The notes below the pieces were generated by a model. The model saw only the letters and a list, made by a program, of their open reading frames with translations. It was not told the DNA's origin and did not search any database. This document shows positions 1 through 623 of a stretch of DNA of 32,637 nt, piece after piece; position 1 is the stretch's first letter, and every line of letters starts with the position of its first letter. The translations under genes and the position numbers were made by a program. Source of the stretch: Bacteroidales bacterium (GTDB lineage: Bacteria; Bacteroidota; Bacteroidia; Bacteroidales; VadinHA17); contig JAHYJA010000020.1 of the NCBI GenBank assembly GCA_019429325.1, positions 1 through 32,637 of the forward strand. Reading direction: 5' to 3'.

Positions 1-64
1 GGGGTTTCGGGGTTTCGGGGTTTCGGGGTTTCGGGGTTTCGGGGTTTCGGGGTTTCGGCGTTTC
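1..64. repeat. 8-bp tandem repeat GGGGTTTC, eight units
   Basis: Seven exact GGGGTTTC units begin at positions 1, 9, 17, 25, 33, 41 and 49, and an eighth variant unit GGCGTTTC begins at 57. The array touches the left edge of the window, so its true length is unknown. The regularly spaced G4 runs fit the sequence rule for a G-quadruplex on this strand, but folding is an inference. No coding potential was assigned. Confidence 0.95.
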
Positions 65-65
65 C

Positions 66-98
66 ACGTAGAGGCAGGTCTGAGACCTGCCTCTACGT
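66..98. repeat. 33-bp perfect palindrome, REP-like hairpin
   Basis: The arms ACGTAGAGGCAGGTCT (66-81) and AGACCTGCCTCTACGT (83-98) are exact reverse complements around a single central base at 82. The element ends immediately before the stop codon of the RAYT gene (stop at 99-101 on the minus strand). It is a sister of the palindrome at 223-263. RAYT transposases are known to be associated with such hairpins; that this one is the cognate substrate is inferred. Confidence 0.9.
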
Positions 99-623
99 TT
101 ACGATGTATTGCCACAAAACCCCGCCGGATTATTTTTGATATATAACCGGACGCGTTTCAATTCATCATACGATCGGATGATCCGATCGTAAAAACGGGG
201 CTGCCAGATTCCGGTTGATCGCGTTGATGTAGAGACAGGTCTCAGACCTGTCTCTACATCAACCGGAAATAATTCATTGATCCGTCGTGATGAAAACGAT
301 TTGAATGCCCTGATAAATTCCGAAATGCCATGTTTATGTTTTAAATACGGATTGTTTATGATTGCAATTATACCATGAATATGATTTGGCATAATTATAA
401 ATTCATCCAGATAAATATTGGAATAATGATTTGGCAAATCATACCAACAATCATAAACAATTTTCCCCATTCCTGATAATTTTATCTGAGATTGAACAAT
501 TTCACCAAACAACCATTCCCGGTTTTTTGTACAAATGGTTATAAAATATGTGCCATCACGGGAATAATCATATCCCTTCAGCCGTGTGGAATCAACACGA
601 TATTTGTTCCTGAACCGATTCAT
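99..623 (-). CDS. RAYT-family transposase (Y1/IS200-like)
   Basis: The 174-residue protein belongs to the REP-associated tyrosine transposases, single-strand DNA nucleases related to IS200/IS605 TnpA. Seen: an N-terminal core with GYDYSRDGTYFITICT (residues 17-32), the HUH metal-binding motif MPNHIHG (H81, H83), and a C-terminal FYDRIIRS segment in which Y145 is the likely catalytic tyrosine. The family then usually continues with a short YIKNNP-like end, as here. The odd feature is residues 121-134 (VDVETGLRPVSTST), which are encoded wholly by a palindrome lying in frame between the helical region and the GIWQPRFYD segment. A sister palindrome follows the stop codon. No IS-type terminal repeats or target duplications were seen, so it is probably a domesticated or REP-linked gene rather than an IS. 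Whether the protein with the insert is active cannot be told. Confidence 0.85.
   Translation of the reverse strand: MNRFRNKYRVDSTRLKGYDYSRDGTYFITICTKNREWLFGEIVQSQIKLSGMGKIVYDCWYDLPNHYSNIYLDEFIIMPNHIHGIIAIINNPYLKHKHGISEFIRAFKSFSSRRINELFPVDVETGLRPVSTSTRSTGIWQPRFYDRIIRSYDELKRVRLYIKNNPAGFCGNTS
223..263. repeat. 41-bp perfect palindrome inside the RAYT gene
   Basis: The 20-bp arms GTTGATGTAGAGACAGGTCT (223-242) and AGACCTGTCTCTACATCAAC (244-263) flank one central base. The core GTAGAG-R-CAGGTCT and its complement are shared with the 66-98 palindrome; the one arm difference (A here, G there) is matched by T versus C in the other arm. A further arm, TTCCGGTTGAT at 209-219 and its complement at 258-268, is offset by nine extra bases (CGCGTTGAT) on the left side. 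Confidence 0.92.

Follow-up and report, generated by a model that had tools for sequence, protein, structure and literature searches.

An in-frame double-foot REP palindrome in a RAYT gene of a Bacteroidales bacterium and its counterparts in related RAYT genes

The stretch of Bacteroidales DNA analysed in this study, 32,637 nucleotides in length and referred to as the window, encodes near its first position a RAYT (TnpAREP) whose gene is interrupted in frame by a perfect palindrome. The same palindrome recurs at the side of the gene and is absent from the corresponding site in near relatives. Judged by these features of the sequence, the locus is probably a REPtron of TnpAREP subclass 2.4 (RAYT group 4), in which the gene of an HUH/tyrosine single-stranded DNA nuclease would have acquired a copy of the double-foot REP hairpin cognate to its enzyme; the copy lies where the gene encodes an exposed loop joining helix alphaC to the WQ strand. 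As a phenomenon, REPs in frame inside RAYT genes were already published in 2018 (PMC6006769). Unusual here is the site, 7 residues before WQ, which is unique among the 63 linker palindromes of a survey including the best 80 of at least 500 candidate loci.

The RAYT gene and the palindromes of its locus

Features of the locus, in window coordinates:
1..64, no strand assigned: tandem array of GGGGTTTC, adjoining the downstream palindrome and reaching the contig end
66..98, minus strand: sister palindrome adjoining the stop codon; perfect, 16-bp arms, 1-nt loop, core at 68-96
99..623, minus strand: RAYT (TnpAREP) gene, 174 aa, stop codon 99-101
141..143, minus strand: catalytic tyrosine Y161 within YIKNNP, invariant in 60 homologs
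169..191, no strand assigned: second perfect palindrome within the RAYT coding sequence, following closely on WQ; non-REP, 11-bp arms, 1-nt loop
201..206, minus strand: W140-Q141, counterpart of the conserved TnpAREP WQ; W140 invariant and Q141 nearly so in 60 homologs
223..263, minus strand: in-frame palindrome encoding residues 121-134; perfect, 20-bp arms, 1-nt loop
375..386, minus strand: HUH motif NHIH, residues 80-83; H81 and H83 invariant in 60 aligned homologs

A sequence-only reading made earlier of this DNA had called the gene a RAYT and its palindrome one of the type associated with RAYTs. Both assignments are supported by the score for PF01797 (Y1_Tnp; 31.9 bits, cutoff 23), by the double-foot pattern and by the motifs NHIH, WQ and YIKNNP, which correspond to NH[IFV]H, WQ and YIxNNP of subclass 2.4. 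The distance between H81 and Y161 is 80 aa with the insert included; in subclass 2.4 the HuH-Y distance is long and variable with a median of 88 aa (PMC6006769). The score for NF047646, the equivalog of REP-associated tyrosine transposases, lies at 66.5 bits under the curated cutoff of 80, which counts against the assignment to subclass 2.4. For NF033573 (IS200/IS605 TnpA) the score was 23.2 bits, also below the curated cutoff (55). The RAYT family profile matched one PDB sequence, TnpArep 4er8 (E 3.1e-8), and with the AlphaFold2 model (mean pLDDT 87.3) Foldseek returned IS200/IS605 transposases and 4er8 (TMq 0.61). The protein shares its HUH-Y fold with IS200/IS605 TnpA such as those of IS608 and ISDra2, but it has Y-NNP where class 1 has a Y-Q context. 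Hairpin-bound ssDNA chemistry is common to these TnpA proteins and RAYTs.

Both palindromes described in the earlier reading, the one of 41 bp encoding residues 121-134 (VDVETGLRPVSTST) and the one at the RAYT stop codon, turned out to be perfect. Palindrome 223-263 begins at ORF base 360, a codon boundary, and contains a 29-bp double-foot core, GTAG...CTAC, at 229-257, beyond which the arms extend for 6 bp on each side; 7 residues lie between the core and WQ. Both palindromes fit the double-foot pattern GT[AG]G ... C[TC]AC, the double-foot hairpin of the locus being GTAGAGACAGGTCT. When folded as single-stranded DNA, a check already suggested in the reading, they reach about -22 (223-263) and about -18 kcal/mol (66-98), and none of 200 shuffles folded as well. 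The values for RNA are -35.6 and -28.7 kcal/mol, respectively. The cores differ as had been noted, i.e. by A or G on one arm, T or C on the other arm and by the central base. In the reading this was taken as a sign of selection for the hairpin. However, GAGAC and GAGGC variants both occur in one genome of the same genus (G011), so that the exchange looks like a difference between REP variants; alternatively, template switching at hairpins could have altered both arms at once. The covariation is real, but by itself it is no proof of selection on the hairpin of this gene.

The loop encoded by the palindrome, between helix alphaC and the WQ strand, is predicted to be exposed and disordered (pLDDT about 60 at residues ~119-140, below 50 at 130-135). 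Because it adjoins W140-Q141, and the W94/Q95 region of E. coli TnpAREP is listed among the residues contacting GTAG (PMC6006769), an effect on GTAG recognition is possible. If the locus is a REPtron as proposed, the HUH-Y enzyme would recognise foot and hairpin in ssDNA and, acting on such hairpins, might itself have produced a REP copy in the vicinity of the gene that encodes it. Where a loop is tolerant, such as this one, which apparently accommodates 14 residues, in-frame insertions would survive, and the in-gene hairpin would stay usable as a REP copy.

In the genome from which the window derives (3.39 Mb, 263 contigs, 96.95% complete) this RAYT was the only one found, a second match being weak, on the other strand and at the same place. 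With up to 3 mismatches allowed, the 29-mer has 2 copies in the assembly, both at the RAYT locus and none elsewhere, and hence does not behave as a high-copy dispersed REP. Without dispersed family copies, the genome gives no sign of the enzyme spreading its REP. In this respect, as in its NF047646 score, the locus differs from subclass 2.4. The sequence-only reading had named absence of the palindrome from the rest of the genome as a result that would speak against it; such absence was indeed found for dispersed copies in this genome, but relatives of the same genus do contain dispersed copies of the family. A looser double-foot pattern detected 2 further palindromes of different sequence elsewhere in the genome (L032 1501-1528 and L033 1501-1528), one of the GTTGCATGCAAC type and one degenerate; no matching RAYT was found in the assembly.

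In-gene palindromes among related RAYTs

The survey comprised all 51 RAYT genes from the 60 nearest genomes (52 match rows, E <= 1e-15) and the best 80 of at least 500 named candidate loci. These 131 loci included 4 duplicates, ORF-identical pairs of same-genus loci and Bacteroidia/Bacteroidales MAG records (L004=L084, L008=L110, L013=L090, L022=L160). HUH, W and Y were recognised in 107 of the 127 unique ORFs; the other 20, lacking a recognisable HUH...W...Y, are excluded from all counts on 107. All P values are nominal, since the sequences are related.

A double-foot palindrome after the first Met was present in 61 of the 107 RAYTs (26/41 and 35/66 in the two sets, the second being the best 80 of at least 500). 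Six more (L010, L015, L086, L120, L124 and L128) contain footless REP-like palindromes, so that 46/107 are without a strict in-gene copy and 40/107 if footless copies count. Read from stop to stop, the 107 ORFs hold 71 palindromes, of which 63 lie in the linker from HUH to W and the other 8 precede HUH. All linker palindromes except that of the window (62/63) end at least 29 residues before W. The site of the window's palindrome is shared by L003, a broken relative. L010, L015 and L142 contain in-gene rows of several palindromes or palindrome-like peptides (VETPKLGVST; VETGLKPVCT).

This frequency is peculiar to RAYT genes. Among neighbouring mechanical ORFs of at least 150 aa (both strands, 209.5 kb) none of 236 contained a double-foot palindrome, compared to 63/107 RAYT ORFs from stop to stop. 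The pattern occurred 71 times in 8 genomes, 12 times at surveyed RAYT loci (8 inside the ORF) and 59 times elsewhere; one of the latter (L186) was not recognised, leaving 58 classified palindromes. Only 4 of these 58 lie inside any ORF of at least 90 aa, three of them in ORFs of 100-112 aa, which may be spurious, and one as a 23-nt match in a 346-aa ORF. In the viral contigs searched for relatives, 4 stretches fit a pattern, none encoding a relative.

An origin of the palindrome by chance, in a stretch of ordinary protein sequence, can practically be dismissed, and no supporting points were found. Codon-shuffled RAYT ORFs (20 rounds) held a double-foot palindrome in a mean of 0.1 and a maximum of 1 out of 107, which excludes chance. 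Furthermore, the window's site is empty in L004, L006 and L085, and other RAYTs encode differing peptides while keeping the DNA palindrome. The segment is thus not ordinary protein sequence in most homologs, which the earlier reading had named as the outcome that would contradict it, and the frame-keeping, lineage-specific insert which it had proposed is borne out: of the nearest relatives, L004 has the palindrome outside the gene only and L006 in other places within it, and L003 shares it.

According to Quentin et al. 2018, TnpAREP subclass 2.4 is abundant in Cyanobacteria and Bacteroidetes, is associated with double-foot GTAG...CTAC REPs and has REP insertions within tnpAREP genes, which leave the frame undisrupted and are generally located between HuH and Y (PMC6006769). 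The window's RAYT resembles this subclass, or RAYT group 4, as an HUH-Y enzyme with NHIH, WQ and YIxNNP, and its double-foot REP is found both beside the gene (66-98) and in frame between HuH and Y (223-263). It differs in the place of the insert, which follows alphaC and precedes the WQ strand, the usual location being the HuH-alphaC linker. Di Nocera et al. 2013 described GTAG-tagged REPs and REPtrons, and REPs inside various genes of several species (PMC3733652). The GTAG-tagged palindromes beside a RAYT and the in-gene REPs are common to both cases; there, however, the in-gene REPs are spread over many unrelated genes, whereas in our 8 genomes they lie in RAYT genes, with at most 4 of the 58 others in any ORF. 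Rickettsia palindromic elements (RPE), cited in the same paper, are likewise palindromic DNA in frame in coding sequence, but occupy many kinds of genes (PMC3733652); in the present case the RAYT gene itself is the recipient, and its insert corresponds to the flanking REP. Among the matches listed, a literature search with thin coverage of subscription papers and with preprints outside its scope returned no other account of REPs located within RAYT genes.

Reading phase, pairing and perfection of the hairpins

In the linker, 55 of 63 palindromes begin on a codon boundary (GTA GRG) and 8 in the next phase; the third phase would read TAG. Counted per distinct arm, the first reading phase predominates for 31 of 35, and before HUH the phases are distributed 3 vs 5. 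Random insertion leaves the strong bias in the linker unexplained, a point against the REPtron account proposed above. The 32 distinct 28-nt linker palindromes vary at positions 9-12 (entropy 1.5-1.9 bits), yet 31-32 of the 32 are paired there; their foot is fixed since the filter demands GTAG. The mid-stem varies and stays paired, therefore it is not the encoded peptide which is conserved.

Phase and pairing, together with the concentration of palindromes in RAYT genes (61/107 compared to 4/58 elsewhere), would fit an in-gene hairpin kept by selection, either as a linked source copy travelling with the enzyme or as an mRNA or ssDNA hairpin for self-control of the RAYT. We consider this alternative possible, though rather unlikely. 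Perfect copies are more frequent in genes than among dispersed palindromes (26/30 in genus and order vs 28/58, p 0.0005; in-gene over all 55/67), which points in the same direction. Against it, perfection is no rarer among the flanking palindromes, located up to 600 bp from a RAYT, than among those in genes (29/35 vs 52/64, p = 1). Perfection is therefore a property of the locus, whether or not the copy resides in the gene, and we discarded it as evidence of selection at the level of the gene. Selection for retention is also opposed by the repeated change in linker presence, at least 13 times on well-supported branches of the tree described below, and by the RAYTs without an in-gene copy. In-gene stem mismatches (GT 2, AC 0; at the centre 2 and 2) are too few to judge selection at the RNA level.

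Alternatively, template switching may copy one arm onto the other, so that perfection and covariation of the arms arise by mutation and selection is not needed. According to published reports, hairpins can originate and persist through this process (PMC8794818), and it can lengthen the identity between arms (PMC3820800). It would explain why pairing continues past the feet into locus-specific bases, on average for 1.09 bp vs 0.35 bp expected (114 palindromes; 0 of 20,000 simulations), a nominal statistic since the copies are related; 72 of the 114 show no extension. It would also suit L001 and L003, which have the palindrome at the same site with different self-complementary extensions, and the palindrome 169-191 that arose in the same gene. 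The latter is a candidate footprint of template switching: palindromes other than the strict double-foot type occur in 10/107 RAYT ORFs, nine of which contain footless REPs, leaving 169-191 as the sole non-REP one. A palindrome like it was obtained in 5 of 2000 codon shuffles, and L004 and L006 are without a counterpart. On the other hand, dispersed intergenic copies are perfect in just 28/58 cases and therefore not all hairpins are kept perfect, and the presence of palindromes in RAYT genes at all is left unexplained. We consider template switching, too, possible though rather unlikely.

A role of the palindromes as seeds of tandem repeats was considered and rejected. Arrays lie within 30 bp of 23/80 in-gene palindromes vs 57/1855 control positions, but linkers free of palindromes are similar (arrays in 10/44 RAYTs without a palindrome vs 19/63 with one). 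Since such linkers have arrays nearly as often, the linker itself may be repeat-prone.

Match to flanking copies and changing presence in the linker

In-gene palindromes match those beside the same gene. At the 14 loci with both, the arms differ on average in 0.5 of 14 bases compared to 3.67 with partners permuted, and none of 10,000 permutations was as low; L117 with a poor match at 4 is the exception. The AGGTCT core is found beside or in L001, L003, L004 and L006 and beside L085, an Ignavibacteriales RAYT. Its placement varies: before WQ in L001 and L003, in two other loops in L006 and only downstream in L004. In one copy of L006 both feet are altered together (ATAG...CTAT).

The palindromes come and go between close relatives. 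L009 has a palindrome and L013 has none, with core halves 97% and 94% identical. In a tree of the 107 RAYTs, composed only of those found in the present survey, parsimony requires at least 28 changes of linker presence, of which at least 13 fall on starred, well-supported branches; some clustering of presence persists all the same (as low a value in 2 of 500 shuffles). An in-gene palindrome without any double-foot palindrome within 600 bp outside the gene was found in 48/107 RAYTs, contrary to what would be expected if palindromes had simply hopped into the gene from its flank. L108 and L163, with core halves 92% identical, have palindromes differing in mid-stem and reading phase, which suggests that the mid-stem is perhaps not strictly read by the enzyme.

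We tentatively propose, as a speculation less secure than any alternative discussed above except chance, that the RAYT gene is the home of its REP. The linker would be a slot, used mainly in one phase, into which the hairpin cognate at the time is brought again and again, either exchanged or newly inserted; enzyme and substrate would be inherited as a unit, and dispersed copies would be decaying offshoots. The window might then be a limiting case, with the only copies of the genome and the hairpin moved next to the GTAG-linked WQ region. The restriction to RAYT genes, the single main phase and a mid-stem that varies freely yet stays paired extend the description of 2018 in ways that can be tested. 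For the question of what keeps REPs and their transposases matched, it would matter if the substrate is carried by the gene itself: a matched pair could then easily be inherited together or transferred horizontally, and this genome with its two copies would be a minimal system for the action of the enzyme on its hairpin.

The relative sharing the window's palindrome site, L003 (837-1000), is broken just past the palindrome, where an array of units of about 8 bp follows, and the WQ/Tyr half was not found behind it. L066 has its HUH half in one frame and its Tyr half in another, separated by an array of units of about 18 bp resembling half a palindrome; a pseudogene and a copy-number switch are both conceivable.
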